A stretch of 34,790 nt of DNA from Anaerolineales bacterium (GTDB lineage: Bacteria; Chloroflexota; Anaerolineae; Anaerolineales; Villigracilaceae). The notes beneath the pieces are model-generated. The model had not been told where the DNA came from. It was given only the letters and a program-made list of their open reading frames with translations, and did no database searches. Location: assembly GCA_017882125.1 (NCBI GenBank), contig JADGQC010000008.1, positions 1 to 34,790 of the forward strand. Reading direction: 5' to 3'. Each line of letters opens with the position of its first letter. Position 1 is the first letter of the stretch. Made by a program: the position numbers and the translations under genes. This document shows positions 1,284 through 18,679 of this stretch, one piece after another.

Positions 1284-4200
1284 TTATTTCTGGCTTGCCA
1301 TTAACGCCATAAATGCATTTACTACCCGGGGCTCAAAATGCTTCCCTGATTGTTCGAGGATATATTCCAATGCTTTCTCACGAGTCCATGCCTGGCGGTA
1401 AGGACGGTTGGTGGTGAGTGCATCAAATACGTCAACTATGGCGAAAATTCGCGCAACGATTGGGATTTCTTCGCCTTTTAAACCTCGCGGGTAGCCACTA
1501 CCATCCCACTTTTCATGGTGACAATAAGGGATGTTGATTGCCGGACGCAGGTAAGTAATAGGAAAGAGTAAATTATACGCATATTGCGGGTGCTGGCGCA
1601 TAATATTCCACTCGCGCTCATCCAGGGGACCAGGCTTTAGAAGGATTTTATCCGGGATGGCAATCTTGCCAATGTCGTGCAGAAGGGAGCCACGCCGGGC
1701 ATGTTCCGTTTCCACTTCTTCAATACCCATATCCTGGATCAGTTGCAAGGTCAAATCAGTGACCCGCAGGGTGTGACCTTCCGTATCTTCATCCCGCAAT
1801 TCCAATGCTTGTGACCAACCCTGAATAGTTGCATCATATGCCAATGTCAGCTCAAGGTTGGACTGTTGCAAGTTTACAAAGAGGCGGCCATTATCAATGG
1901 CTATAGCGGTTTGCCCTGCCAACATCTCAAAGAAACTTATCCATTCCTGGTCAACCTGCATGGGAGAACGACGGAAGATTTCAAGGACACCCTGGATCTG
2001 ACCTTTGGCGATCAAGGGGATGGCATGATAGCCGACGAAATTTTCTCCTTCCAGATACTTAACCAGCAAGGAAGCTGAATTGGACACAGGATGTTCCATA
2101 ACCTGTGCCACCTCATCGGTCTTTTGAAGATCCGTGATATTTATGGCACGCCTCTGCAAAGCGGACTGCCCAGCCAAACCTTCTCCCAGCCGCAGGCGTA
2201 ATCCTTCGACGGAATGCGCCCGGAAGCCACGCCCGGAGGCATATTCGAGCATCCTTGTCAACGGGTTGAAAAGCAAAACGGCAGCGGCATCCGCCTTCAG
2301 TTCCGTCATGATATTTTCCAGGACGATATTAAGAGTGACATTCGTATCCACACTTGCACCGATAGCTGCATCAATAGAATGCAAGGCTGAGAGTCGGTGC
2401 AAGCGCAGTTGGGTCTCAGAGAAAAGCCGGGCGTTTTCAATTGCCACTGCAGCCTGGGAGGCAAAAGTTACCAACAAGCCCAGGTCAGATTCCGTAAATG
2501 CAGATTTTCGAGAGACATTGTCCAGGGATATGACTCCAATTACCTTTCCTTTAACAATTAGAGGAGCGGCAATTCCGCTTAGCACGGCATCAATCTCTTC
2601 AATTTCACCCTTAAATGGAATCTCATATTCAGAATGGACATCATCAATCTTTAAAGGTGTCCGCTCACGAGCAACCCGAGCCGCATACCCATTCTGATTT
2701 GGAAGGAATAAGTCGATTAAGCGGGGATCTGAGTAGCCTGTGAGAGCATGAAGGCGGAGTAAACCGTCAGGTTCTGTAAGAAGGATGGCTCCTTTTTCAG
2801 CTGCGGGAATTGCCTTCCTGGCCCCTGCCAGGATATTTTCAAGTAATGGCTGCAATTCAACTGCACTCGTCAAGGAGACGCTCACCTGAGAAAGAGATTC
2901 GAGCTCAGCCAAACGGTGACGAGTTTCTTCGAACAGGCGGGAATTTTCAATGGCAATCCCGGCATAAGCTGCCAGTGTTTTCAAAAGAATCTCATCCTCT
3001 TCAGAATAGATGTTTGGACGATAATCCTGAACTGAAAGGACGCCAACTATTTTGGCCCCAGAATGAAGTGGTAATGCAATAATGGACCGTGGAGTACCCG
3101 GCTTCCCAAACCTGGCAGTTTTGACCGGTTTTTCCTTCAGGGAATCTAATACGCGAAAAGACTTTTTCGCATCGATGACGTAGCCGGCCAACCCTGAACC
3201 CCAATCGGAATCAAAAGCTGGAAAGCGTTCACCCCGATCAAAAAGGTATACTGCTCGAAGCACTTTCCGGTTTTCATCTGCCAGCGAGATTGTGAAGACA
3301 TCCAGGGGCATTAATTGTCTAATCGCCTGATGGATGGAATGGTAAACCTGTTCAAGGTCGAGACCGGCTGAAGCAATTTCCTGACCGGCGCGATATAGCA
3401 CCGCTCGGCGTTCCGCTGCGCTGACGACATCCTGGTACAAACGAGCGTTCTCAAAGGCATTGGCTGCTTCGGATGCCAAGGTTTCCATAAAGATCTGGTC
3501 TTCCGCACTATAGACATCCGGATCGCTGCTTTGTGCAGATATCACCCCGACGATCTTATCCTGCACCAACAGGGGAACTGACAAGACCGCCCGAGCTGGC
3601 TCCCCACCATCGACCAAAACAGGTTTTGTCCCCCTGATATTCAGCACATCCTTAATTCGTAAAGATTTTTTACTTTTTACTACTCGCCCTGTTATGCCTC
3701 CATTTTTTGGCATTCGGGTATTAGGGTGGCGAATGCCGCGGTCGTACATGTAAGGAGCTACAAGCTCACGACCATCCTCGGTTATGAGTGAGACAACAAA
3801 GGCCTCCGCGGGCATTACCTGCTGAGCGGCCTGGTGAATTGCGTGACAAAGAGCCTCCACATCCTGCCCAGCCCGAACAATATCGAGACCGCCCTGGTGC
3901 AAGGCATCCTTGCGTTTCGCGGCTTTTACTGCCTCTTGATACAAACGTGCATTCTCAAAGGCAATCGCGGATTGTGTCGCAAGTGTTTGAAGCAGGTGCT
4001 CATCTTCTTCGCTAAAGCGATCAATTTGGCGACTTTCCACAATGACAGAACCAAGAACCCGCTCACCAATCATCAAGGGTACATAAAGCCCTGAACGAAT
4101 TTCAGGGAAAGCAGATATGTAGCGATCATCAGCAAGTACATCCCCACTTCGGATCGTCTTGCCGTGGGATACCACCCAACCACTTAATCCCTGCGTTGTG

Positions 4201-7200
4201 GTTGCAAACATTTGATTTAGGCGGTCAATTTCAACCTTAATTTCGGTGGGATTTAGACCTGGTCTATTGAAAGCAAGTAATTCAACTTGTTTTGTTTCAG
4301 GATGGTACAACCGGATGGCGGCATTATGCCACTCCAGTTTTTGCGACAGAATATCAATCATTTTTTGCGCAATAGCCCGAGGATCGAGCAACACGCTTAC
4401 GCTAAGACCATTTTCATAAAGGACTTCAAGGTCAGCCACCCGACGCTGTATCTCCTCTTCCGCCTGCCTGCGCTCGGTGATATCGTGCATATTAATTACC
4501 AGACCCTGAACCGCTGATTCATTAAGCAGATTGGAGGCAGTCGCTTCAATCCAGTGCCAAGACCCATCTTTATGCTGGTTCCGAAAGGTTGATTGGCGAA
4601 TCTCTCCCGGATGCTGGACCAGGTCGTTTATAACCCGGGCAACAACGCTTTTGTCATCGGGATGAATATATTCGTACCCGCTTTTGCCAAGGCGCTGGCT
4701 GGAAGCCCAGCCCATCATTCTTGAGTAGGCAGGGCTTTCATACAGGATTAATCCACGTGGGTCGACCAGGACAACGGCATCAGTATTATTCTCGATCAAA
4801 GCGCGGAAATATTTTTCACTATTCTGAAGCGCTTCCTGAGCTATTTTACGTTCGCTAATGTCTCTGCCTGAACCTAAAATACCAAATGGCTGTCCCTGTG
4901 GATTACGGATAAGAGTGAAAGTTATTTCGCTCCAGTAACTGGTTCCGTCCTTTTTATAAAACTCCAGCTCAATGTCCCGGGACACGTGACGGTGGGGGTG
5001 GGCAGTGTTTTCAGGGGACAAGATATCGGAAAACAGTTTTAAGGCTCGTTGAAGTGATTCCGGGTGCATTTGCCGATCAAGCGGGATATTATTGAGTTCA
5101 TCGAGGGTAAAACCGCGGAGACGTGACACGGAAGGGCTGGCATAGGTTGTGCGCAGACTCATATCCATCAACCAAACCGTATCGCTCATATTCTCGGCGA
5201 GCATACGGTAGCGTTCCTCGCTGAGACGGATCTGTTCCTCAGCCATTTTACGAGCGGTGATATCCCGAAACGACCAAACCCGGCCTTGAATTTTGGAGCC
5301 TTGGATTAATGGACATGATAATCGCTCAAAGACCCTTCCATCCTTAAAATTAATGGTATCGAAACTTTCCTTCCTGGATCTATAAAGGTCCTGAACCTTC
5401 TTGAGGAAAATTTGCGGGTCGTAAAGTTGATCGAGGACGCTTTGAAGGAGTAGAGCGTCATCTTTACTGGCCATGATTTCCTTGGAAATTCGCCATATAT
5501 CAGCGAAACGTTCGTTTGCATAAAGCACATTATTGTCAGTTCCAACCGCTAAAATACCATCTGCTGTAGACTGAAGAACTGCCTGCAACGAAGATTCGCT
5601 CTGCCTCAAGGCATCTTCTGCCTTCCTGCGTTCTGTTATATCAGTCAGGGTCCCCTCAAAGTAGAGCGCATTGCCCTGCCAATCGCGGATTACCTGGGTG
5701 TTTTCAAGTACATTGATCTTGTGACCATCCTTGCGCCGCATGGAGGCTTCAGCATTGCGCAACTCCCCTTTTTGCATCAAAATGGTGGCCCAAGATTGGC
5801 GGGCATCGGGATTTATGTACAGATCGCGGGCGATATCTACCTTAAGAAATTCATCTGCGGAGGAATAGCCAAAGATCCTGACCAACGCCGGGTTTACCGA
5901 TAAAAATTTTCCATCTATAGTGCTACGATAAACCCCATCTGGAATGTTTTCAAATAAGCTGTGGTAATTCTTCTCGGCTTCAAGCAGGGCTTTTTCGGCC
6001 ATGAAACGCTCGGTAATGTCGCGCGCCACCCAGAGGGTGGAATTTTCCGTCATTGGAGAAATGGATGTCTCAAACCAAACAGTCCTTCCACTTATGTTTA
6101 AATCATATTCTATTTGGGAGGTTTGTTTTGTATCAAGAACCTTTTGAACAACGTGGATAAAGTTTTCCGCCTGTTCAAGCGGGAATACTTCCCGTAAGGT
6201 TTTTCCAACCAATCCACCAGAAGACACGACCAGCAGTTCGGGATTAGTGGTGGCGACTTTAAGATAAACCCCGTTCCGGTCAATCACCAGTACCACATCT
6301 TCCATGGATGTGAACAAAGCGCGCAACTCTGCATCTGAAGCTGCCAAAGCCTCTTCAGCATGGGTGCGTTCTACAATTTCCAGTTGGGCTTGCTCGTACA
6401 AATGGGCATTCTGTAGGGAAATGGCTGCCTGATTCCCAAACGCAGCAATAGCAGGAATATCCGCGGAAGAAATGTCAGGACCAGTGACGGCCAAGATTCC
6501 AATCGCTTCATCACCCACTTTTAAAGGAGTGAAAATTGATTGATCTAATTTGAAAAGAGAAGTTATTGTGCGAACAAGAGAACGAAATTTTCGAGGTAAA
6601 GTTTCTGCGACGGCAAGGGCAGGATCTGAAACAAAAATAGTCTCCCCCTGCTGAATGGCACGCTGATAAATACTGTTTTTTTCCGGATGAAATCGGAAAT
6701 TTCGAAGTATAAGTCCAGTTGCTTTTTCAGCCTTGCGTATCAAATCTGCTTTATAGTTAATATATAAAATATGCAGGGATTGGTCATCCGCTGAAATTTC
6801 GAAACCCGTGGTGTGGTAACCCAACTTGGTAAACTGGGTCTGGATCGCCTGATAAACTCCAGAAGTGGTCCGAGAGCTTTGGACTGCCTGCGCTGCCTGA
6901 TTAAGAGCTAATAACAAACGATTGGCGTGCGCAGTCTCTTCCTGAGAGTGAAGTAAATCCTGTTCGACTTGCCTGCGCTCCTTGATCTCTTGTTGCGCCT
7001 GTTCGAACAGGCGCGCATTGTCAATGGCAACTGCGGCATGACCGGCCAGCATTTCAAGCAATTCCCGATCCGCTGTAGTGTAAGCGCCTGGGTGGTAACT
7101 CTGAGCGGAAACCATGCCTGTAGCTTTTCCTTTTAGCAACAGCGGTACGGCCAAAATCGACGCTGTTTCAGGCCCAGTGCCATAGGGTACAAAATTGATT

Positions 7201-8279
7201 CCACTCGCACTAATTTCTTCCAGGTTGTTCAAGATTAAGGATTGACCTGAATGAATGATATACCCACCCAACCCGTGGTCTGCTTTATAGGGATTTAGCG
7301 ATATTCTTTTCCCATTCTCCAGAATGTAATTTCCCACCATTTCATTCGTCGTTTCATTATATAAACTGATTAAGAAATCTTCGCACGACATAACCTGTTT
7401 AACAGCACGTTTGACGGCTACGAAAACCTGTTCAGTATCAAGGCTCGCACCAATCGCTTCCCCGGCACGATATACAATGGACCAACGTTCCACCATACGT
7501 TGAAGGTCCTGTTCAGCCTGTTTCCGCTCAGTGATGTCATGTGCATTGATTATGATGCCTTTAATCGCGGAATCATTTAGCTGGTTGCTCCCCGAACCTT
7601 CGAGAATTCTCCAAGACCCATTTTTATGATGAATCCGTAATTGCATTGATACCGGTACCGGGGTTAGTGATTGGATAAGCTTACGGAAAGTCTCAATAAA
7701 ACCAGGCATTTCTTCGGGATGGATGTAATCCTGAAGACCAGACCCAATAACAACATCTTCCGGTGAATATCCCAGAAGATGCTCGAGAGAAGGACTGATA
7801 TATTTCAGGGTTGCATCGGAGTTCAAGATGCAAATAAGGTCGGAAGAGTTTTCAATGAGAGAGCGGAAACGGGCTTCGCGTTCAAGAAGAGCATGGCTTG
7901 CAGAGTGTTTTTCAGAGGCCCGGCGAATAGCCACCAGGAGCTGATCCACCTCGTAAGGTTTTTGAAAATATGAATATGCCCCCAAATTGACTGCTTCGAT
8001 CGCAGTGGCCTGTGAGGCATGACCAGTAAGCATGATGCACTCTGTCTCGGGAGAAACCGACTTGATGCTGCGCAGGACATCCAGACCAGATATCCCTTCC
8101 AACTTGATATCGATTAGGACAACATCTACATCCTGCTTTTGTATATAGGCTAAAGCAGCTGGTCCGGTTTCAACTGGTACCGATTCAAAACCCTTGACCT
8201 TGAGGATATCGCTCAAAACGCCGCGCAGATTGGGATCATCGTCCAACAGCAGAACTTTGGTCATCTTGTCATCCACCAT
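1284..8279 (-). CDS. Giant response regulator: REC, 6 PAS, 7 GAF, HD-GYP (putative cyclic-di-GMP phosphodiesterase)
   Basis: 2331 residues from the ATG at 8279, chosen because GGGAG lies 5 nt upstream. An ATG at 8336 would add 19 residues but has a poor ribosome site; an ATG at 8264 is also possible. Domains in order: receiver (6-123; acidic pocket DDD, phospho-acceptor D57, T85, K107), PAS (136-255), two GAF (265-425, 455-630), five PAS (650-755, 770-885, 897-1008, 1020-1143, 1155-1270), five GAF (1282-1445, 1458-1615, 1627-1785, 1795-1953, 1962-2135), HD-GYP (2150-2330). PAS units end in the usual DITER linker. The HD-GYP domain keeps HD at 2201-2202, HH at 2254-2255 and GYP at 2262-2264, the residues needed to hydrolyse cyclic di-GMP. 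No histidine-kinase or GGDEF domain and no membrane span is visible, so it looks like a soluble integrator of many signals. Cognate kinase unknown; a kinase remnant lies about 1 kb upstream. Confidence 0.93.
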   Translation of the reverse strand: MVDDKMTKVLLLDDDPNLRGVLSDILKVKGFESVPVETGPAALAYIQKQDVDVVLIDIKLEGISGLDVLRSIKSVSPETECIMLTGHASQATAIEAVNLGAYSYFQKPYEVDQLLVAIRRASEKHSASHALLEREARFRSLIENSSDLICILNSDATLKYISPSLEHLLGYSPEDVVIGSGLQDYIHPEEMPGFIETFRKLIQSLTPVPVSMQLRIHHKNGSWRILEGSGSNQLNDSAIKGIIINAHDITERKQAEQDLQRMVERWSIVYRAGEAIGASLDTEQVFVAVKRAVKQVMSCEDFLISLYNETTNEMVGNYILENGKRISLNPYKADHGLGGYIIHSGQSLILNNLEEISASGINFVPYGTGPETASILAVPLLLKGKATGMVSAQSYHPGAYTTADRELLEMLAGHAAVAIDNARLFEQAQQEIKERRQVEQDLLHSQEETAHANRLLLALNQAAQAVQSSRTTSGVYQAIQTQFTKLGYHTTGFEISADDQSLHILYINYKADLIRKAEKATGLILRNFRFHPEKNSIYQRAIQQGETIFVSDPALAVAETLPRKFRSLVRTITSLFKLDQSIFTPLKVGDEAIGILAVTGPDISSADIPAIAAFGNQAAISLQNAHLYEQAQLEIVERTHAEEALAASDAELRALFTSMEDVVLVIDRNGVYLKVATTNPELLVVSSGGLVGKTLREVFPLEQAENFIHVVQKVLDTKQTSQIEYDLNISGRTVWFETSISPMTENSTLWVARDITERFMAEKALLEAEKNYHSLFENIPDGVYRSTIDGKFLSVNPALVRIFGYSSADEFLKVDIARDLYINPDARQSWATILMQKGELRNAEASMRRKDGHKINVLENTQVIRDWQGNALYFEGTLTDITERRKAEDALRQSESSLQAVLQSTADGILAVGTDNNVLYANERFADIWRISKEIMASKDDALLLQSVLDQLYDPQIFLKKVQDLYRSRKESFDTINFKDGRVFERLSCPLIQGSKIQGRVWSFRDITARKMAEEQIRLSEERYRMLAENMSDTVWLMDMSLRTTYASPSVSRLRGFTLDELNNIPLDRQMHPESLQRALKLFSDILSPENTAHPHRHVSRDIELEFYKKDGTSYWSEITFTLIRNPQGQPFGILGSGRDISERKIAQEALQNSEKYFRALIENNTDAVVLVDPRGLILYESPAYSRMMGWASSQRLGKSGYEYIHPDDKSVVARVINDLVQHPGEIRQSTFRNQHKDGSWHWIEATASNLLNESAVQGLVINMHDITERRQAEEEIQRRVADLEVLYENGLSVSVLLDPRAIAQKMIDILSQKLEWHNAAIRLYHPETKQVELLAFNRPGLNPTEIKVEIDRLNQMFATTTQGLSGWVVSHGKTIRSGDVLADDRYISAFPEIRSGLYVPLMIGERVLGSVIVESRQIDRFSEEDEHLLQTLATQSAIAFENARLYQEAVKAAKRKDALHQGGLDIVRAGQDVEALCHAIHQAAQQVMPAEAFVVSLITEDGRELVAPYMYDRGIRHPNTRMPKNGGITGRVVKSKKSLRIKDVLNIRGTKPVLVDGGEPARAVLSVPLLVQDKIVGVISAQSSDPDVYSAEDQIFMETLASEAANAFENARLYQDVVSAAERRAVLYRAGQEIASAGLDLEQVYHSIHQAIRQLMPLDVFTISLADENRKVLRAVYLFDRGERFPAFDSDWGSGLAGYVIDAKKSFRVLDSLKEKPVKTARFGKPGTPRSIIALPLHSGAKIVGVLSVQDYRPNIYSEEDEILLKTLAAYAGIAIENSRLFEETRHRLAELESLSQVSVSLTSAVELQPLLENILAGARKAIPAAEKGAILLTEPDGLLRLHALTGYSDPRLIDLFLPNQNGYAARVARERTPLKIDDVHSEYEIPFKGEIEEIDAVLSGIAAPLIVKGKVIGVISLDNVSRKSAFTESDLGLLVTFASQAAVAIENARLFSETQLRLHRLSALHSIDAAIGASVDTNVTLNIVLENIMTELKADAAAVLLFNPLTRMLEYASGRGFRAHSVEGLRLRLGEGLAGQSALQRRAINITDLQKTDEVAQVMEHPVSNSASLLVKYLEGENFVGYHAIPLIAKGQIQGVLEIFRRSPMQVDQEWISFFEMLAGQTAIAIDNGRLFVNLQQSNLELTLAYDATIQGWSQALELRDEDTEGHTLRVTDLTLQLIQDMGIEEVETEHARRGSLLHDIGKIAIPDKILLKPGPLDEREWNIMRQHPQYAYNLLFPITYLRPAINIPYCHHEKWDGSGYPRGLKGEEIPIVARIFAIVDVFDALTTNRPYRQAWTREKALEYILEQSGKHFEPRVVNAFMALMASQK

Positions 8280-8336
8280 TAATTCTCCCGACGAAGTAAC
8301 GGGTTTTTTGGATATTTCAAATTCAATAAACGGCAT

Positions 8337-10015: not shown

Positions 10016-10279
10016 ATGGGTATCCAAATTTCTTTGAGTCGTGAATCTCAACGCCGGGAAGTCCTGGTATCTGGGCATGTTGTTCCAAAGCCAGGACGGT
10101 GCGTTCAGTGCGGGATTTGTTCCTTCAATTGTCCAATCGGGATTGATGTGCGCAGACATGCCTGGCTGGGAGAACATATTGAAGCATCCCAGTGTTTGAC
10201 CTGTGGTGAATGCGTCAGGCGCTGCCCACGTGGAGTATTGAGCTTTGAAAGAACCGAACTGTTCATGAAGGGATTTTAA
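10016..10279 (+). CDS. Small ferredoxin-type protein with two [4Fe-4S] motifs
   Basis: 87 residues. Two clusters of cysteines, C29-x2-C32-x2-C35-x3-C39-P and C60-x2-C63-x2-C66-x3-C70-P, each match the [4Fe-4S] ferredoxin pattern. The 20 residues between them are longer than in classic clostridial ferredoxins and resemble the 4Fe-4S domain of HdrC- or GlpC-like electron carriers. Its stop codon overlaps the ATG of the next gene (TAATG at 10277-10281), so the two are translationally coupled and the proteins probably form a complex or a redox pair. No signal peptide, hence cytoplasmic. The exact partner and potential cannot be read from sequence. Confidence 0.88.
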   Translation: MGIQISLSRESQRREVLVSGHVVPKPGRCVQCGICSFNCPIGIDVRRHAWLGEHIEASQCLTCGECVRRCPRGVLSFERTELFMKGF

Positions 10280-11592
10280 TGAACCGATATGTAATCGTTG
10301 GTACTGGTGTGACCGGAGTGACAGCCTTAAATACTTTGCGGACCAATGACCCATCTGCGAAAATAAGCATGGTGGGAGATGACCCGCACGGGTTTTACTC
10401 GCGCCCGGGCATAGCTTACTACCTAAACGGTGAGATTCCTGAAAACCAACTCCCGATATTTTCAAAGAAGGATTGGAAACCATTGAACGTAGACATTGTT
10501 AAGGGAGTCGCTTCCCGGTTAGACCTCCGAAACCACCTGTTGGAAATCGATTCTTCAAGCGTCTTGAAATACGATCGACTGCTGATAGCAAGCGGATCAA
10601 CTGCTGTGACACTTACCATTCCAGGAGCAGGTTTGAAGGGAGTAGTTAAACTCGATGATTTTGAAGATACGCGCCACATCATATCATTGGCAAGACATGC
10701 CAATTGCGCTGTTGTGGTCGGAGGGGGGATCATTGCTGTCGAACTGGTGGAAGGTTTGATGGCAAGAGGTCTCAAGGTTCACTATTTCCTGCGCGGGGAC
10801 CGATACTGGCCCAATGTTTTGGATGAAAAAGAATCCCGTCTGCTCGAGCATCGGCTTGCCGAAGATGGAGTAATTCTCCATTATCAAACAGAAGCCGCGG
10901 AAGTGCTCGGTAAACGTGGAAAAGTTGTGGGTGTGCGCACCACCAAGGGCGAAACCATCCGCTGCCAGGTAGTAGCAGTAGGGATCGGCGTGAAGCCACG
11001 CATGGAACTAGCGAAATCCGCAGGGCTCGCAACCGACCGGGGAATCCTGACGGATGAAACCCTGCAGACCAGCAGCCCCGATGTCTTCGCGGCCGGGGAC
11101 GTTTCCCAAGTTCACGATCCCCAAAGTGGGAAATCCATTGTTGATACATTATGGCATCCAGCTCTCGATAAAGGTAAGGTCGCTGCCATCAACATGACCG
11201 GTAAGAGGAACACTTACGTTAGAACCTTAACGACGAATGTTCTTCGCCTGGCGGGTGTATTGACGTCCATCATCGGTGCGGTGGGAAGCGGGGTTGACGA
11301 CGACCTGGTCAGTGTGGCACGCGGATCGAGCGAGACCTGGCATGAATTACCAAATACCATCTCCCTGGAAAGCAATGGAGATGTGAACCATGTGCGCCTT
11401 ATGATCGGCGAAAAAAACCTGGTGGGGGCAATTGTAATGGGAGATCAAAAACTATCCGATCCCATACAGGAATTAATTTCTTCGAAAGTTGATATTTCCT
11501 CCATACGAAATCTACTCATCCCCGGCGCTCCATTGGGTCAGATAATCATGGATTTCTGGTCGGCGCATAAACTGCCAGTAAGAAGTGCATAG
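10279..11592 (+). CDS. FAD-dependent NAD(P)-disulfide-type oxidoreductase
   Basis: 437 residues. It has the FAD dinucleotide fold at the N-terminus (VIVGTGVTG, residues 5-13), a second nucleotide fold for NAD(P)H (VVVGGGIIAVE, 145-155) and the FAD-closing motif VFAAGDV (269-275). This is the layout of the NADH-dependent reductases related to rubredoxin reductase and the N-terminal part of NirB. The redox-active CxxxxC of true disulfide reductases is absent from the first domain, so it should pass electrons from NAD(P)H to a protein partner, most simply the ferredoxin encoded immediately upstream (1-nt overlap), or the reverse. It lies 109 nt before the large cytochrome genes. Substrate not known. 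Confidence 0.87.
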   Translation: MNRYVIVGTGVTGVTALNTLRTNDPSAKISMVGDDPHGFYSRPGIAYYLNGEIPENQLPIFSKKDWKPLNVDIVKGVASRLDLRNHLLEIDSSSVLKYDRLLIASGSTAVTLTIPGAGLKGVVKLDDFEDTRHIISLARHANCAVVVGGGIIAVELVEGLMARGLKVHYFLRGDRYWPNVLDEKESRLLEHRLAEDGVILHYQTEAAEVLGKRGKVVGVRTTKGETIRCQVVAVGIGVKPRMELAKSAGLATDRGILTDETLQTSSPDVFAAGDVSQVHDPQSGKSIVDTLWHPALDKGKVAAINMTGKRNTYVRTLTTNVLRLAGVLTSIIGAVGSGVDDDLVSVARGSSETWHELPNTISLESNGDVNHVRLMIGEKNLVGAIVMGDQKLSDPIQELISSKVDISSIRNLLIPGAPLGQIIMDFWSAHKLPVRSA

Positions 11593-11658
11593 GGCCTCAT
11601 TTGTTGCAGTCCAGTTGGGTCAAGGGATTGGAGTCACAAGATTCCTCCCCTCTTAATT

Positions 11659-11697
11659 GGTAACCCATTTTATTCTGAAGCCTTGCTGAAATAGGAG
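11659..11697 (+). pseudogene. Possible scar of a second cytochrome b gene 3' end
   Basis: Just before the first cytochrome c gene, one frame reads FYSEALLK then stop. The intact cytochrome b gene ends LYYATLLK then stop at the same distance before the second cytochrome c gene. The 13 bases TTGCTGAAATAGG are identical at both places. It suggests that a cytochrome b-cytochrome c unit was duplicated and the upstream cytochrome b lost. The match is short, so chance is possible. Confidence 0.4.
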
Positions 11698-11701
11698 AAC
11701 C

Positions 11702-14242
11702 ATTAAAAATACCCGGCTAGGTTGCTTAACTGCTACAGGTGTCATGGCTGCAGTACTAACTCTCCTAATCACTGCAGGGTTCGCTTTAGCATCGGGTGGA
11801 ATGTTATTCAGCCCCGGCGCCCTCAATGCGCGTATGGGCATTCCCTTGGGCGGCACAGGTTCAAATAATGCACGAGAAGGTGCTCCGCTTGGCGGAGTAA
11901 GCTCGCATGCGGAAATTACAGGCCAATGCGATTTATGCCATGCCCCATTCTGGAGTCCGACAACAATGGCGGACAGGTGCGTGGCCTGTCACACCGATGT
12001 TGCTGCACAATGGCTTGACCCCGCCACATTGCACGGGACGCTGCGCCAAAATAACCCAGATTTGGCCTGCCGCGATTGCCATCCCGACCACCGGGGTCCA
12101 GATTCCCCGTTGGTAGACCTAAGTAAAGCGAGTTTCCCCCACACCACTTTCGGTTTTTTGTTGACAGCCCACCAATTTAAAAGTGATGGATCACCATTCA
12201 GCTGCAACGATTGTCATGCGAAGGTTTACACGGGGTTCGACCAGAACGCCTGTACCAGCTGCCATTATCAAATAGATGCAACTTTCGTGGCAGGTCATGT
12301 GCTTGATTTCGGCATTGACTGCATAGCATGCCATAATGGGGTGGACAACTATGGTCATAATTTCAACCACAACAAGGTAACCTTCCAGTTGACCGGAGGT
12401 CATACCCAGGTGGCGTGTGCGAAGTGCCATGTAAATACGCGCACCCTGGCAGACCTTAAGTCAACCCCGCAAGACTGCAAATCCTGTCATGCAGGGAATG
12501 ATGTCCACCAAGGGCGCCTTGGAAGCGATTGCGGTTCGTGCCACACAACCGCGGGTTGGACTCCAGCAACTTATGACCACAACCAGTCCGTGTTCAAATT
12601 AATCGGGCTTCATTCCGATGTTGCCTGTGCAGATTGCCACATCAATCATGTTCTCCAGGGTACTCCCACGGACTGCAATAGCTGTCACGCGCCTAAAGAT
12701 GTTCACCAGGGTCGTCTTGGGACAGATTGTGGATCCTGCCACACAACCGATGGGTGGACACCAGCCACATATGACCATAATCTGTCAGCATTTAAACTGA
12801 GTGGACAACACACAATAACCGCGTGTGCGGACTGCCATGTCAATCAAGTGCTGCAGGGTACACCGACTGACTGCTTTGCATGCCACGCCCAAAAAGACGC
12901 CCACAAGGGTGCTCTAGGTAATGCCTGCGGTACCTGCCATAATGCTGCAGCATGGAAACCCGCATCCTACAACCACGACCTGGCAACTTTCAAATTGACG
13001 GGGCAACATACAACTGCCACCTGCCTGAGCTGTCATGCCAATAACGTTTATAAAGGCACTCCCGCTGACTGTAATTCCTGCCACGCAGCAAAAGATGTCC
13101 ATAATGGGAATTTGGGTAAGAATTGTGGTTCCTGCCATTCAACCAACGCATGGAAACCATCCAGCTACAACCACAACCTTGCAACATTTGCATTAACCGG
13201 GCAACACATTAATATTGGTTGTACAAATTGTCATGCGAATAATGCATTCTGGGGAACTCCAAGCGACTGCAATTCCTGCCATTCTGGGAAGGATACTCAT
13301 CACGGTCAGTTGGGACCGAATTGCGGACAATGCCACTCAACCAGCGCATGGCTACCTGCAACTTTCAACCATAATATGTCCAGTTTTAAATTGACCGGTA
13401 AACATGCGAACGTTGATTGTACCGGATGCCACAGCAATAATGTCTTTAAAGGTACTCCCACCAGTTGCAATGCATGCCATGCCACCCAAGACCCTCACGG
13501 TGGTCAATTCGGGAGTAATTGCGGTTCCTGCCATACAACCAGCGGCTGGCTCCCGGCAACGTTCGATCACAATCTTTCCTCCTTCAAGTTGACAGGAGCA
13601 CATACGAGCGTTAATTGTGCCCAATGCCATCCTGGCGGCAACTTCAGTAGTGCTTCTTCAACCTGCTCAGCTTGTCATGCTCAGCCAAGTAGTCATTTCG
13701 GGAACGATTGCGCACAATGCCACACGACCAGTAATTGGAATGCTTCCTATTCACATACCGGATTTGCATTGACTGGTGCGCATTCGAACCTGACGTGCAC
13801 TAAGTGCCATACTGGCAGTGGTTATACGGGGCTTTCGACAGACTGCGCGTCCTGTCATGCTGAGCCGTCTGGCCATTATGGCACCAATTGTTCTTCATGC
13901 CACACCACCAGCAATTGGAACGCCTCCTATTCACATACGATTTTCCCGCTAACCGGCGCACACTCCAGCCTGGCCTGCACACAGTGTCATACCGGGAGCG
14001 GTTATACGGGGCTTTCAACAGACTGTGCGTCCTGCCATGCTCAACCATCTGGCCATTATGGTACCAACTGTTCATCCTGCCACACGACCAGCAATTGGAA
14101 CTCAACTTTCTCTCACCCAAATTCTTGTGGGGGAAGCTGCACCAGTCACCATCGAGCCACCTGCACTGATTGTCACCCCAGCAGCAACTATTCCACTTCC
14201 GATTGTCGAAAATGCCATGACAGCAACAATCCCGGAGGCTAG
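11702..14242 (+). CDS. 35-heme c-type cytochrome, N-terminally anchored or secreted
   Basis: 846 residues when read from ATT at 11702; the first ATG in frame is 11744. I prefer 11702 because AGGAGA stands just upstream, and IKNTRLG there aligns with MKNTQLG at the start of the paralogue at 14949; the ATG start would cut the signal sequence short. After one hydrophobic segment (about residues 10-35) I count 35 CXXCH heme sites: six in an N-terminal head, 27 in nine tandem three-heme modules, and two at the end. The first six modules are about 66 residues long (CADCH..TPTDC..CH..DVHQG..CGSCH..DHN..GQH), the last three about 60. Histidines outside the motifs recur in each module and could supply the second axial ligands. 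The tail has a non-heme CGGSC pair. Likely function: long-range electron transfer outside the membrane, fed by the adjacent cytochrome b. Confidence 0.93.
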   Translation: MKNTRLGCLTATGVMAAVLTLLITAGFALASGGMLFSPGALNARMGIPLGGTGSNNAREGAPLGGVSSHAEITGQCDLCHAPFWSPTTMADRCVACHTDVAAQWLDPATLHGTLRQNNPDLACRDCHPDHRGPDSPLVDLSKASFPHTTFGFLLTAHQFKSDGSPFSCNDCHAKVYTGFDQNACTSCHYQIDATFVAGHVLDFGIDCIACHNGVDNYGHNFNHNKVTFQLTGGHTQVACAKCHVNTRTLADLKSTPQDCKSCHAGNDVHQGRLGSDCGSCHTTAGWTPATYDHNQSVFKLIGLHSDVACADCHINHVLQGTPTDCNSCHAPKDVHQGRLGTDCGSCHTTDGWTPATYDHNLSAFKLSGQHTITACADCHVNQVLQGTPTDCFACHAQKDAHKGALGNACGTCHNAAAWKPASYNHDLATFKLTGQHTTATCLSCHANNVYKGTPADCNSCHAAKDVHNGNLGKNCGSCHSTNAWKPSSYNHNLATFALTGQHINIGCTNCHANNAFWGTPSDCNSCHSGKDTHHGQLGPNCGQCHSTSAWLPATFNHNMSSFKLTGKHANVDCTGCHSNNVFKGTPTSCNACHATQDPHGGQFGSNCGSCHTTSGWLPATFDHNLSSFKLTGAHTSVNCAQCHPGGNFSSASSTCSACHAQPSSHFGNDCAQCHTTSNWNASYSHTGFALTGAHSNLTCTKCHTGSGYTGLSTDCASCHAEPSGHYGTNCSSCHTTSNWNASYSHTIFPLTGAHSSLACTQCHTGSGYTGLSTDCASCHAQPSGHYGTNCSSCHTTSNWNSTFSHPNSCGGSCTSHHRATCTDCHPSSNYSTSDCRKCHDSNNPGG

Positions 14243-14359
14243 GGTCTTCCGGAAGATGTATTTGCTGTAATTCCTAACTGATTGATACGGTAAAATTACA
14301 AATACGAGATTGACTGACCTCATCCGGTCGGACAACAGGGAAAGTTATGGAGGATATTT

Positions 14360-14941
14360 ATGACGCATTACATGACACGATATAGTGGGAACCGGGGATT
14401 ATGGTTGTCTTTTTTGGCCGCCATTCTCATCAGCGCAATTTATGCTGTTGTCGTCTTTTTTACCAGAGCGATTCCTCCTGCGGGTGCATTATTTGGTCAC
14501 CTGCTGGGAATTGTTGGTTTTATTCTCATGCTGATGACCGAAATCCTGTATTCCATCCGCAAGCGCAGCCGGTCAGCTCGGTGGGGAAGCATGGCCTCAT
14601 GGCTCCAATTCCACATTTTCACCGGCCTGGTTGGACCCTTCATGGTCCTGCTGCACTCCTCCTGGAAGTTCAACGGCCTGGCAGGAGCCACCACCCTTTT
14701 AACCATCCTTATCGTAATCAGTGGGTTTATCGGACGATATATCTACACCCAGATCCCGCGCTCACTGGAGGGGGTTGAGATTGAGACGACCGCCGGACAG
14801 TCCCAGGCCTCAGGCCTGGCACGCGCTCGACGTTTACTTGCGATCTGGCACATCATCCACATACCGATCGGGATGGCCCTCTTCGTAGCAGCATTCATTC
14901 ATATCGGTGCGGCGTTGTATTATGCTACGTTGCTGAAATAG
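14360..14941 (+). CDS. Diheme b-type cytochrome, membrane protein
   Basis: 193 residues with about five membrane spans (roughly 15-36, 43-64, 82-101, 107-130, 162-189). Two of them carry a pair of histidines 14 residues apart, H85/H99 and H167/H181, the classic geometry for two stacked b hemes across a membrane, as in ferric-reductase-type and other diheme cytochromes b. H47 and H164 are additional candidates. A loop at 131-160 with several charged residues separates the last two spans. GGAGG lies 7 nt before the ATG. It sits between two large cytochrome c genes and ends 7 nt before the second, so it is the obvious membrane link between the cytoplasmic redox pair and the external cytochromes. 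Family name uncertain; the diheme call comes from the histidine spacing. Confidence 0.8.
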   Translation: MTHYMTRYSGNRGLWLSFLAAILISAIYAVVVFFTRAIPPAGALFGHLLGIVGFILMLMTEILYSIRKRSRSARWGSMASWLQFHIFTGLVGPFMVLLHSSWKFNGLAGATTLLTILIVISGFIGRYIYTQIPRSLEGVEIETTAGQSQASGLARARRLLAIWHIIHIPIGMALFVAAFIHIGAALYYATLLK

Positions 14942-14948
14942 GTAATTG

Positions 14949-16727
14949 ATGAAAAATACCCAACTGGGTTTCTTTACTGTTTCCGGTATCATTGCTGCCG
15001 TCCTTACCATCATAATAGTGGCGGCGTTTGCGTTAACGTCGGGAGGGATGTTGTTCAGTCCAGGCGCTCTCAATGCCCGGACCGGTATCGCATTGGGCGG
15101 TGTGGGTTCAAATAACGCACGTGCGGGAGCCCCCCTTGGCGGGGTGAGTTCACACGCGGAAATTGCGGGTAAATGCAACCTGTGTCACGTCCCATTCTGG
15201 AGTTCATCCACGATGGCCGACCAATGCCTGGTTTGTCATAAAGATGTAGCCGTTCAACTGCTAGTCCCGACACCACTGCACGGGACTCTCCACCAGGAAT
15301 ATCCCAGCCTGACCTGCAGCAACTGCCACCCTGACCACCGTGGTCCAACCCCACCTCTTACTGACCTAAGCAGCATAGGTTTTTCCCACAATTCGTTCGG
15401 TTTTTTATTAACCAATCACCAGGTTAAAAGCGATGGATCGCAATTCATTTGTGTCGATTGCCATACGCAGAACTACACCAGTTATGACCAGAGCAATTGC
15501 AGCACTTGTCATGCCCAAATTGATACCAGTTTTACTCAAAGCCACGTCAAGGATTTCGGGGCAAATTGTCTGGCATGTCATGATGGAGTGGATACTCTCG
15601 GTCATAATTTCGATCACAATTCCGTCACATTCCAGTTGACAGGGAATCATGCCCAAGTAGCTTGTGGGCAGTGCCATATTAATGACAAAACCCTGGCAGA
15701 TCTCAAATCCACTCCGCAAGACTGCGTTTCCTGCCATTCAGCGAAAGATGTACACTGGGGCCGGCTCGGCCCAGATTGCGGGGCGTGCCATACCAACACT
15801 GGCTGGGTGTCTGCCGCCTATAATCACGATCTGGCTGCCTTCAAATTGAACGGACAACATTTAATCGTAAGTTGCGGGGATTGTCATGTCAACCATGTTC
15901 TTCAGGGAACACCGACCACATGCAGTGCCTGCCATCAAGATAAAGATGTTCACCAAGGCCGACTTGGGGCCGCTTGCGATTCATGCCATACCACCCATGG
16001 TTGGACACCCGCAACATATGACCACAACCTGTCTGCTTTTAAACTGACAGGATTACATACTACAACAGCCTGCGCGAATTGCCATATCAATCACGTGCTG
16101 CAAGGTACGCCAACCGACTGTTATACATGCCACGTATCACAAGACAAGCATAATGGCCAGTTCGGTAGTGACTGCGGTACCTGCCATTCAACAGGAGGCT
16201 GGCTGCCAGCATCATTCGACCATCCCCGCTTTGGGTTTACTTTAACCGGTGCTCACGCACCTTTAAATTGTGCGCAATGTCATTCAGGGGGCAGTTACAC
16301 TGGATTATCGACCGCTTGTGTTGCCTGCCACGGCGAACCACCCGTGCATGCCGGAATGTTCGGGACAAACTGCGCACAATGCCACAGTACCAGCAATTGG
16401 AACGCTTCTTTTTCCCACTCAAACTTCCCAATGGATGGCGCACATGCCAACCTGGCGTGTTCACAATGTCATTCCAGTGGAAGTTTTGGGGGCCTTTCAG
16501 CAGATTGCGCTTCCTGTCACGCGGAACCATCGGGGCATTACGGCTCTAACTGTTCATCCTGCCACAATACCAGCAACTGGAATGCATCTTTCGCACATCC
16601 CAACTCATGCGGTGGCAGCTGCCTCAATCACCACCGGGCGACCTGTGCCGATTGTCACCCAAGTGGCAGTTATTCTTCATCAGATTGCCGTAAATGCCAT
16701 GACAGCAACAACCCAAATGGTGGCTGA
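14949..16727 (+). CDS. 23-heme c-type cytochrome, paralogue of the 35-heme protein
   Basis: 592 residues from ATG at 14949 (a TTG at 14946 directly precedes it), 7 nt after cytochrome b. The hydrophobic N-terminal segment, the following FSPGALNAR...GAPLGGVSSHAE stretch, the six-heme head and the tail are near copies of the 35-heme protein. I count 23 CXXCH sites: six in the head, 15 in five three-heme modules (three of the ~66-residue kind, two of the ~60-residue kind) and two at the end. The twelve-heme difference from the paralogue equals exactly four modules. The closing CGGSC, HHRATC and SDCRKCHDSNNP segments are shared. Exported by the Sec route and anchored or released; it should carry electrons away from the membrane. 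Followed by a hairpin region at 16763-16823. Confidence 0.94.
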   Translation: MKNTQLGFFTVSGIIAAVLTIIIVAAFALTSGGMLFSPGALNARTGIALGGVGSNNARAGAPLGGVSSHAEIAGKCNLCHVPFWSSSTMADQCLVCHKDVAVQLLVPTPLHGTLHQEYPSLTCSNCHPDHRGPTPPLTDLSSIGFSHNSFGFLLTNHQVKSDGSQFICVDCHTQNYTSYDQSNCSTCHAQIDTSFTQSHVKDFGANCLACHDGVDTLGHNFDHNSVTFQLTGNHAQVACGQCHINDKTLADLKSTPQDCVSCHSAKDVHWGRLGPDCGACHTNTGWVSAAYNHDLAAFKLNGQHLIVSCGDCHVNHVLQGTPTTCSACHQDKDVHQGRLGAACDSCHTTHGWTPATYDHNLSAFKLTGLHTTTACANCHINHVLQGTPTDCYTCHVSQDKHNGQFGSDCGTCHSTGGWLPASFDHPRFGFTLTGAHAPLNCAQCHSGGSYTGLSTACVACHGEPPVHAGMFGTNCAQCHSTSNWNASFSHSNFPMDGAHANLACSQCHSSGSFGGLSADCASCHAEPSGHYGSNCSSCHNTSNWNASFAHPNSCGGSCLNHHRATCADCHPSGSYSSSDCRKCHDSNNPNGG

Positions 16728-16848: not shown

Positions 16849-18189
16849 TTATTGCAGCTGAATATTTACAGACTCAGCCTTTATTTCCGCAGCTGAAGAT
16901 GTCTCAGACGGTGGAGGTTGATTACGGTTATGCTCGATATTTATAATCGCCGGAATGGAAAAGGCAACCAGGGTAATAATAATGCACAATCCTCCCCCAA
17001 TAAGGTACCAAATTCGAACTCCCAGCCAGTCTGAAATAGGCCCAGCCACCATCAAGCTGAGAGGCATCATAGCTGTGGCGCCGGCATTTATTAGGGAGAA
17101 GACACGTCCCTGCATATCCGGTTCGATCGCCGTCTGGAAAATTGCGGTCAATGGGCCATTGGCAAACACTTGAGTCACACCAATTACAAAGTTGGCTACG
17201 AGGATCAGGAGGAACAAATTGGATGGTGCAGCGCCAATCAGGATAACCCCCGCGCCGATGCCGATGACTCCAGTCAGAGAGGTGCTTATTTTCCTTTTAA
17301 ATCCACCCCAGGCGCTGAGTACCAATCCACCAGTAATGACACCCACCCCAAAGACGGTCTCCGTCCAACCAAGTTCAGCCACCCCTTTCCCGAATACTTT
17401 GGTAATTACCAAAGGGGTAAGAGAACTGCTGGGAATGAGCAAAAAATTGAGCATCATTGCCAACAGAATCAACCCGAGCAACCCCGGCCATTTCACCACA
17501 TAAGTGAAACCTTCACGCAGATCGTGCCAATAAGAAGTTTTATTTATCGAACCATTTGCCTGGGCGATCTGTCTGGGTGGATTGGGTATGGAAAGAACCA
17601 ATAATGGTAAAACCGCAAGAGCTGCCGTCCCAATGTCGATTGCCAGCACATTTTGCATGGGTAACAAACCAATGAGCAGTGCTCCAAGGGGTGGGGCAAA
17701 GATACTGAGCACGCCTTGAAGGGTCTGGTTCAACCCGGAGAGACGCGCCAAATGTTTTTTAGGTACCATCAGTGAAGTGGAAGCAGTCATGGCAGGACTG
17801 TGGAAGGCTCCACCGAGCGATCTAATTAACAAAATTAAATATACCTGCCAGACACTGACATTACCAGCCGCGAAAAGGAGAATAAGAACGCCCGTAGCGA
17901 CCGCAATTCCCGTGTCAGCGATGATCATTATGAGGCGCCGGTTCCAACGATCGACTAATGTACCAACGAAGGGACCCAGCAGGATTTGCGGGAGGAGGGC
18001 AACCAGCGTGGCAGTAGCCAATACGGTGGCTGAACCAGTTGTCTTTGTCATCCACCAAACCAATGCAAATTGAACCAATGCGGAACCGATCAGTGAGAAT
18101 GCCTGCCCGGTCCAGATTGTAAAGAATTTGGGTGCCCAGCGCTCTGGGGTGGGGGAAGAAGAAAAGGGGGTAAATTCAGAATTTTCCAT
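16849..18189 (-). CDS. MFS efflux transporter (MFS_3/EntS-like)
   Basis: 446 residues from ATG at 18189, with TGGA a few bases upstream; a TTG at 18201 would add four residues. It opens with FFTIWTGQAFSLIGSALVQF and continues through about twelve hydrophobic spans. LVDRWNRRLIMIIAD between spans 2 and 3 is the family's loop motif (D-R-x-x-R-R). The second half starts after a cytoplasmic loop near residue 205-215. This group includes exporters for siderophores and macrolides, driven by the proton gradient. A ribbon-helix-helix regulator lies 103 nt upstream on the same strand, which may control it. The last ~30 residues are a polar tail. Substrate cannot be deduced. Confidence 0.88.
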   Translation of the reverse strand: MENSEFTPFSSSPTPERWAPKFFTIWTGQAFSLIGSALVQFALVWWMTKTTGSATVLATATLVALLPQILLGPFVGTLVDRWNRRLIMIIADTGIAVATGVLILLFAAGNVSVWQVYLILLIRSLGGAFHSPAMTASTSLMVPKKHLARLSGLNQTLQGVLSIFAPPLGALLIGLLPMQNVLAIDIGTAALAVLPLLVLSIPNPPRQIAQANGSINKTSYWHDLREGFTYVVKWPGLLGLILLAMMLNFLLIPSSSLTPLVITKVFGKGVAELGWTETVFGVGVITGGLVLSAWGGFKRKISTSLTGVIGIGAGVILIGAAPSNLFLLILVANFVIGVTQVFANGPLTAIFQTAIEPDMQGRVFSLINAGATAMMPLSLMVAGPISDWLGVRIWYLIGGGLCIIITLVAFSIPAIINIEHNRNQPPPSETSSAAEIKAESVNIQLQ

Positions 18190-18292
18190 TATTATTTCCA
18201 ATTCTTAAGGGGGCTATTAATAGACCAAGCCATGAGAAATCATAACTAGATTTTTCGGGAATTTTTCTTCATATATTCAAAAAGCATCCAGA

Positions 18293-18679
18293 TCATTTTA
18301 TCCGATCGATAAGTGCAGCTTTGACCTCATCGCTGGCATGGAAAATGCCTCGCACTTGAATGGATTCGACGACTTCCTTTGCAAGCTGGGGGGAGATATC
18401 ATCAGCGAGATGCAGGTACCCTAGGATGGTCATCTTGACCTTCTCACCCTTTGACCGATATTTTTCCAGTGCAGCCTTGTTATAAATTATCGCTCCGATC
18501 ACATACGAATTGCGAGTCACCGACTGCTGGATTTCCAGATCGTGTTTATCCAGGAGGTTGCGGATGGCTGTTCGAATGAAATCGGTCCTGTTGGAGAAGA
18601 GACCTTCCTGAACAAGAAGATCAATCTTCCCAAGATCCACCGCTGACATATTAATTGTGATTTTTTCAGAATTTGGCAT
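18293..18679 (-). CDS. CopG-type ribbon-helix-helix transcriptional regulator
   Basis: 128 residues. The N-terminal ~45 residues (ITINMSAVDLGKIDLLV, then SNRTDFIRTAIRNLLDK) fit the ribbon-helix-helix DNA-binding fold: one beta strand followed by two helices with the N-cap turn at SNRT. The C-terminal ~80 residues do not match a domain I recognise; NikR-type metal-binding His/Cys residues are not obvious. AAGGAG precedes the ATG. Its promoter (18731-18758) and a 16-bp palindrome between promoter and start (18695-18710) suggest that it represses itself. The next gene on the strand is the MFS exporter, a plausible target. It could instead be half of a toxin-antitoxin pair, but no toxin gene is adjacent. 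Confidence 0.8.
   Translation of the reverse strand: MPNSEKITINMSAVDLGKIDLLVQEGLFSNRTDFIRTAIRNLLDKHDLEIQQSVTRNSYVIGAIIYNKAALEKYRSKGEKVKMTILGYLHLADDISPQLAKEVVESIQVRGIFHASDEVKAALIDRIK

Follow-up and report, generated by a model that had tools for sequence, protein, structure and literature searches.

Two multiheme cytochromes (MHC) with 35 and 23 hemes are encoded close together in the genome of an Anaerolineales bacterium (Chloroflexota). They raise two questions, namely how proteins of the same build come to differ by twelve hemes, and what purpose is served by heme arrays of such length. The genes lie on a stretch of 34,790 nucleotides (contig JADGQC010000008.1), hereafter named the window, which is one contig of a 2.8-Mb, 274-contig metagenome-assembled genome (MAG). 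We propose, with a probability of roughly two in three, that five genes at 10016-16727 specify one envelope-crossing electron conduit, in which the length of the cytochrome arm is set by the number of three-heme modules. All five are on the forward strand and encode, in this order, a 4Fe-4S dicluster ferredoxin-like protein (FES), an FAD/NAD(P)-dependent oxidoreductase (FAD), the 35-heme cytochrome (MHC35), a b-type cytochrome (CYB), and the 23-heme paralog (MHC23).

MHC35 and MHC23 differ by four whole modules

A direct count finds 35 CXXCH sites in the frame at 11690-14242 and 23 in the frame at 14946-16727. When each protein was shuffled 2000 times, the mean number of CXXCH sites was 0.5 for MHC35 and 0.3 for MHC23, with maxima of 5 and 3, respectively. 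Motif spacing divides MHC35 (11702-14242), which has a hydrophobic N terminus, into a six-heme head (11927-12334) with spacing 17, 30, 45, 16, 23, and then 32, nine triplets, and a two-heme tail (14162-14242). The triplets correspond to six long modules, M1-M6 (12416-13615), with periods of 70 and then five times 66 residues, followed by three short modules, M7-M9 (13616-14161), with periods of 60, 60, and 62 residues. MHC23 (14949-16727 if it starts at an ATG, or from a TTG at 14946) has a head and a tail like those of MHC35, separated by five modules (15663-16643) with periods of 70, 66, 66, 63, and 62 residues. Heme density is ∼22 residues per heme. With nine modules in one protein and five in the other, the 12-heme difference therefore equals exactly four modules. 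These measurements agree with an earlier interpretation of the window (the sequence-only reading), which had given the two heme counts, both of them exact, the arrangement of a six-heme head, three-heme modules, and a two-heme tail, and the division into six long and three short modules in MHC35 and three plus two in MHC23, and had equated the difference with four whole modules.

Comparison of the two proteins locates the missing modules. The heads share 67% identity and the pair groups together in a tree of head sequences. MHC23 M1 best matches M1 or M2 of MHC35 (61-62% identity) and M2 best matches M2 (79%), after which M3 best matches M6 (61%), M4 best matches M7 or M8 (60-63%), and M5 best matches M9 (74%). 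Because of these module-to-module matches, the twelve extra hemes of MHC35 are to be seen as interior modules and not as an added end. A 180-bp tandem repeat is still visible at the DNA level in the short modules of MHC35 (13717-14101; 2.1 copies, 82%).

The start of MHC35 is unusual. Between 11690 and 11744, there is no ATG, GTG, or TTG where the start of the paralog aligns; an ATT (11702) is found there, preceded at a short distance by AGGAG. An ATG first occurs at 11744, and starting at this codon would drop basic N-terminal residues that are present in relatives. Position 11702, from which the sequence-only reading had begun the gene, is thus the likely start and has an AGGAG upstream, but its codon is ATT, which may be either a rare start or a sequence error.

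Arm length varies in three-heme steps across the family

We defined a family by a head with spacing 17, 30, 45, 16, 23, followed by triheme modules and a two- or three-heme tail, and by the proximity of FES, FAD, and CYB genes; both MHC35 and MHC23 qualify. The named relatives come from Anaerolineales and other Chloroflexota MAGs, and a few from Planctomycetota. Head and module spacing is near-constant among them, and module number varies. The heme counts, which are mostly from MAGs in which near-identical arrays may be mis-assembled, are 11, 14, 15, 17, 18, 20, 21, 23, 24, 26, 29, 30, 33, 35, 38, 41, 47, and 57, plus one 19; the two most similar modules of the window are 77% identical in DNA. 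A simple length rule, 8+3n for a two-heme tail or 9+3n for a three-heme tail, is obeyed by 94 of the 97 classifiable proteins. The other three show irregular motif spacing, consistent with the loss of single motifs. These family-wide data, with a range of 11-57 hemes, considerably strengthen the suggestion of the sequence-only reading that module copying is the source of the length difference.

Modules at the ends and in the interior of the arms have different affinities. For first and last modules, the best match lies in a different protein (72/73 and 70/73, respectively), and for 32 of 75 interior modules of long arms it lies within their own protein. When interior modules of proteins of all lengths match within their own protein, the partner is the adjacent module in 38 of 50 cases. 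In two of the giants, 198-bp tandem repeats remain detectable in the DNA (7.0 copies at 86% in locus L078 and 5.4 copies at 83% in locus L101). Arms thus become longer or shorter as 198- or 180-bp units inside the array are duplicated in tandem or lost, while the head, the tail, and the first and last modules are retained. The largest members are a 57-heme protein of 1340 amino acids (aa) (L101, 7944-11963) and a 47-heme protein (L123, 6971-10435). Besides triheme modules, the spacing of head hemes 4-6 occurs in repeated copies in both, which means that blocks larger than a triheme module can be copied as well.

Length also changes between close relatives, as illustrated by pairs with 15 versus 24 hemes (L090/L093) and 15 versus 18 hemes (L041/L085). 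In the head tree, the 20-heme copy of a relative is nested beside the window pair. Within-genome duplications look independent in several lineages, to judge from the window pair, L006/L026, and L053. Giants (at least 26 hemes) account for 14 of 47 proteins in multi-copy genomes and for 1 of 56 in single-copy genomes, a comparison that ignores relatedness. At the genome level, 13 of 14 genomes link giants to extra copies, but this association is in part a trivial one, since the maximum heme count rises with the number of copies, and we therefore prefer the per-protein comparison.

Candidate heme ligands

Every module of MHC35 and MHC23 contains three His residues outside the CXXCH motifs, at DxH, DHN, and GxH positions. 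The recurrence noted in the sequence-only reading extends to the family: of 369 modules, 367 contain three or more such His and 296 exactly three. Met, in comparison, is present in only 73 of the 369. In the head plus M1, there are nine hemes and nine invariant non-motif His (14 sequences). This pattern fits bis-His ligation throughout the head and the modules, which lends support, as judged from sequence, to the coordination proposed earlier. Because conserved candidate distal His equal hemes in number in head and modules, there is no obvious open catalytic heme.

A conserved FeS-FAD-cytochrome b cassette

The strongest clue to function is a cassette of partner genes, missed by the sequence-only reading. 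FES (10016-10279), the first gene of the cassette, encodes a protein of 87 aa that matches Pfam Fer4_9, Fer4_10, and Fer4_17 above cut-off, and two copies of its CxxCxxC..CP motif are found in 19 of the 20 relatives' loci that were scanned. FAD (10279-11592), the ATG of which overlaps the FES stop codon, encodes a protein of 437 aa with Pyr_redox_2 (1.4e-46) and Rubredoxin_C matches, and its GxG and AGD motifs are conserved in 69 sequences. CYB (14360-14941) is a predicted transmembrane diheme protein, in which inspection of hydrophobic segments identifies five helices. Two of these carry H-x13-H pairs (His85/His99 and His167/His181) with at least 95% conservation across 57 sequences; the Pfam match of CYB to Ni_hydr_CYTB is weak and below cut-off. 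Paired H-x13-H helices are the pattern of two stacked b hemes, as in cytochrome b and ferric-reductase-like proteins.

The association of these genes with the cytochromes is close. Gene order is FES-FAD-CYB-MHC in nearly all of the ∼95 loci with enough flanking sequence, which span Anaerolineales, other Chloroflexota, and Planctomycetota. The window departs from it, with MHC35 between FAD and CYB, and CYB between the two cytochromes. In a set of 301 Chloroflexota genomes, the MHC head is present in 19 and CYB in 20, with both in 19 genomes. The source genome also encodes cytochrome c assembly proteins. There is no porin among the annotated genes of the operon, a statement limited to these genes since no genome-wide porin search was made, and PMC7399161 reports that no porin-cytochrome conduit was found in Anaerolineales. 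Our limited reading of the open-access literature found no account of the cassette, and its near-obligate association appears to be new.

Several other features were seen in and around these loci. In the window, the cassette is flanked by genes for a major facilitator superfamily (MFS) exporter and an RHH_8 ribbon-helix-helix regulator (16849-18679, reverse strand), and similar-looking MFS/regulator genes stand beside the cassette in several relatives (e.g. L026, L028, and L038). On its other side, a reverse-strand gene (1284-8336) encodes a protein of 2350 aa that combines a response-regulator receiver domain with numerous PAS and GAF domains and has an HD domain (HD_5) at its C terminus. One relative has the cassette as an inverted duplicate on a single contig (L037, G028:C62), possibly an assembly artefact. 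In four loci (L035, L104, L111, and L114), there is a different type of multiheme protein, with spacing 16, 17, 24, 17,... and 10-24 hemes in regular steps, which adjoins a divergent, 15-18-heme head family near the cassette.

Relation to known multiheme cytochromes

Pfam Cytochrome_C7 (PF14522, cut-off 24.8) scores 144.3 bits over ten stretches of MHC35 and 99.4 bits over five stretches of MHC23, and Cytochrom_c3_2 matches MHC35 four times. A profile of three modules searched against the PDB best matches HmcA (1Z1N, E 4.6e-8), followed by the multiheme cytochrome 6QVM (E 1.4e-7) and GSU1996 (E 2.5e-5); there is also a weak match to the archaeal filament cytochrome 8E5G (E 0.003). We read these values as superfamily kinship only, because shared CXXCH motifs inflate them. 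To judge from these profiles, each module is a distant triheme unit of the c7/class III type. A single-sequence search of the PDB returned nothing useful (1rwj, E 0.04). A model of a three-module segment (125 aligned segments) reached a predicted local distance difference test (pLDDT) score of 86, with regularly repeating secondary structure; VIA-align found nothing significant with this model, and Foldseek found no match with a full-length one.

A close parallel in build is found in Geobacter sulfurreducens, which has tandem triheme monomeric "nanowires of hemes", GSU1996 with 12 hemes and, in the same group, GSU2210 with 27 (PMC10138318). As in these proteins (PDB 3OV0), c7-type triheme domains follow each other in one chain, as nine and five triplets in MHC35 and MHC23. 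However, GSU1996 has one His-Met heme per domain, whereas the modules studied here have three candidate His ligands each and few Met; in addition, a six-heme head and an operon with b-cytochrome, FAD, and FeS genes set them apart. A further characteristic of the GSU1996 type is a c7 fold with hemes 3-5 Å apart. MHC23 scores 17.3 bits against the TIGR04257 (nanowire_3heme) cut-off of 40, MHC35 has no match, and 6 of 125 three-module segments match at E ≤ 0.01. We rejected filing under TIGR04257 on these scores and the ligand pattern.

HmcA, a 16-heme cytochrome, shares the class III/c7-like CXXCH pattern, but its alignment shows no uniform triheme tandem array, and HmcA identity was rejected (NF045713, 15.6-21 bits against a cut-off of 400). 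The sequence-only reading had proposed checking whether profile matches would reveal OmcS, OmcE, or OmcZ; none of the three is among the PDB profile matches at E ≤ 0.1, and membership of that filament family was rejected on scores. OmcS, OmcE, OmcZ, and the archaeal extracellular cytochrome nanowire (ECN) filaments (PMC12954529) are likewise multiheme electron conductors, but they consist of short polymerising subunits, and the only sequence relation is the weak 8E5G match. The OmhA pathway of the monoderm Carboxydothermus ferrireducens (PMC7829351) resembles the present system in being a multiheme route for extracellular electron transfer (EET) without an outer membrane. It differs in using several separate, smaller multiheme proteins, and its candidate point of electron entry is quinol-oxidising, not a NAD(P)H/FAD/FeS/cytochrome b cassette.

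Large Anaerolineales MHC with heme numbers that vary among close relatives were presented in 2020 (PMC7399161, Fig. 5), together with the suggestions that gains and losses of motifs involve pairs or multiples and that the proteins serve some form of EET. They are likely the same as the family described here; the text of that paper mentions neither modules, repeats, nor cytochrome b. The view that the architecture had not been described thus holds in part. It stands as far as OmcS, OmcE, and OmcZ are concerned, to which there is no sequence match, and two features of the GSU1996 type are not found, but variable Anaerolineales MHC and Geobacter triheme nanowires were already known. Novelty appears to lie in the rule that length changes in three-heme steps, in the interior mode of tandem duplication, and in the 57-heme extreme of the family.

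A putative electron conduit and its alternatives

In the mechanism that we propose, the FAD protein would draw electrons from NAD(P)H in the cytoplasm and hand them to the 4Fe-4S dicluster protein, which would pass them on to the five-helix diheme b-cytochrome. The latter would carry them across the membrane into the six-heme head of the multiheme cytochrome, and they would then hop from one bis-His triheme module to the next until they reach the two-heme tip and, beyond it, a partner or acceptor outside the cell. Arm length would be set by how many triheme modules there are, and the source genome has arms of 35 and 23 hemes in the operon and of 14 hemes elsewhere. At ∼1 nm per heme, which we take to be the value for the extended crystal structure of GSU1996, arms with 23 and 35 hemes might extend over some tens of nanometres, a distance relevant to crossing the cell wall. 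In this scheme, we infer the electron path and its direction, membrane anchoring, rod-like stacking, and the extracellular acceptor. A more detailed version, in which a quinone-independent conduit takes electrons from NAD(P)H out of bacteria that lack an outer membrane, a single polypeptide spans the wall, arms evolve by duplication in three-heme steps (11-57), and long and short arms are used together, is offered more tentatively and has somewhat less than an even chance of holding as a whole.

A number of observations weigh against the conduit. The full-length AlphaFold2 model (43 sequences) is poor, with a pLDDT of 61, and Foldseek with the three-module model returned only a non-significant match to GSU1996 (3ov0, E 4.6, template modelling score 0.13). 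The hydrophobic N terminus may be a membrane anchor or a cleaved signal peptide. Quinone independence would follow from the NAD(P)H, FAD, and FeS partners only, and the NCBIfam models nearest to FAD (NirB, PadH, and HcaD) are all far below cut-off. A second cassette in the source genome (L024, G000:C254), which contains FES, FAD, and the 14-heme cytochrome, is without CYB. Finally, the one relevant study describes Anaerolineales MHC carriers as mostly planktonic, not electrode-attached (PMC7399161).

The same proteins could serve as an electron reservoir, or capacitor, in which the arms would store 35 and 23 electrons and length would tune capacity, with no obligatory outside acceptor. A storage role has likewise been proposed for GSU1996, which is periplasmic in Geobacter (PMC10138318), and the finding that giants are mostly an extra copy beside a shorter one would suit it. 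The presence of a dedicated transmembrane b-cytochrome and NAD(P)H module at almost all loci, however, fits throughput at least equally, and ordered ends with a variable interior fit a linear conductor, so that we consider storage unlikely. Flow might also be inward, along the same path, with NAD(P)+ or ferredoxin receiving electrons drawn from Fe(II), a cathode, or a partner cell. Chemically, the chain can run in both directions, and another member of the Chloroflexota, Ardenticatena maritima, is capable of both anodic and cathodic electron transfer (PMC5808234), but uphill transfer from Fe(II) to NAD+ would require energy and the cassette shows no subunit for coupling, which leaves reverse flow a chance of only about one in ten.

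The remaining alternatives give the cytochromes a different nature. Weak matches to HmcA, NrfH, DmsE-family, and ExtN/ExtO models, all far below cut-off, might hint at a multiheme enzyme instead of a wire, e.g. an oxyanion, nitrite, or sulfur-compound reductase. That there are as many conserved candidate distal His as hemes argues against it, as does a module number that varies freely among relatives, unlike in a protein built around an active site, and we regard an enzyme as highly improbable. We give slightly less credit still to a subunit of a polymeric extracellular filament, OmcS/OmcE/OmcZ- or ECN-like. It would agree with many hemes in line and with the one weak profile match to 8E5G, but no structure of OmcS, OmcE, or OmcZ is matched at E ≤ 0.1, known filament subunits are far smaller, and here a single chain already encodes length. 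An outward, envelope-crossing conduit is the reading that we prefer.

Implications

The distance over which electrons can travel by hopping within a protein, and the limit that heme number places on the rate, have usually been studied with designed proteins or a few Geobacter filaments. The family described here is a natural length ladder, with a constant head, module, and tail and very different numbers of modules, so that length is variable without changing the ends. For the bacterial class concerned, which occurs in digesters, sediments, and groundwater, it offers a testable answer to the question of how bacteria that have neither an outer membrane nor porin conduits might export electrons from NAD(P)H.

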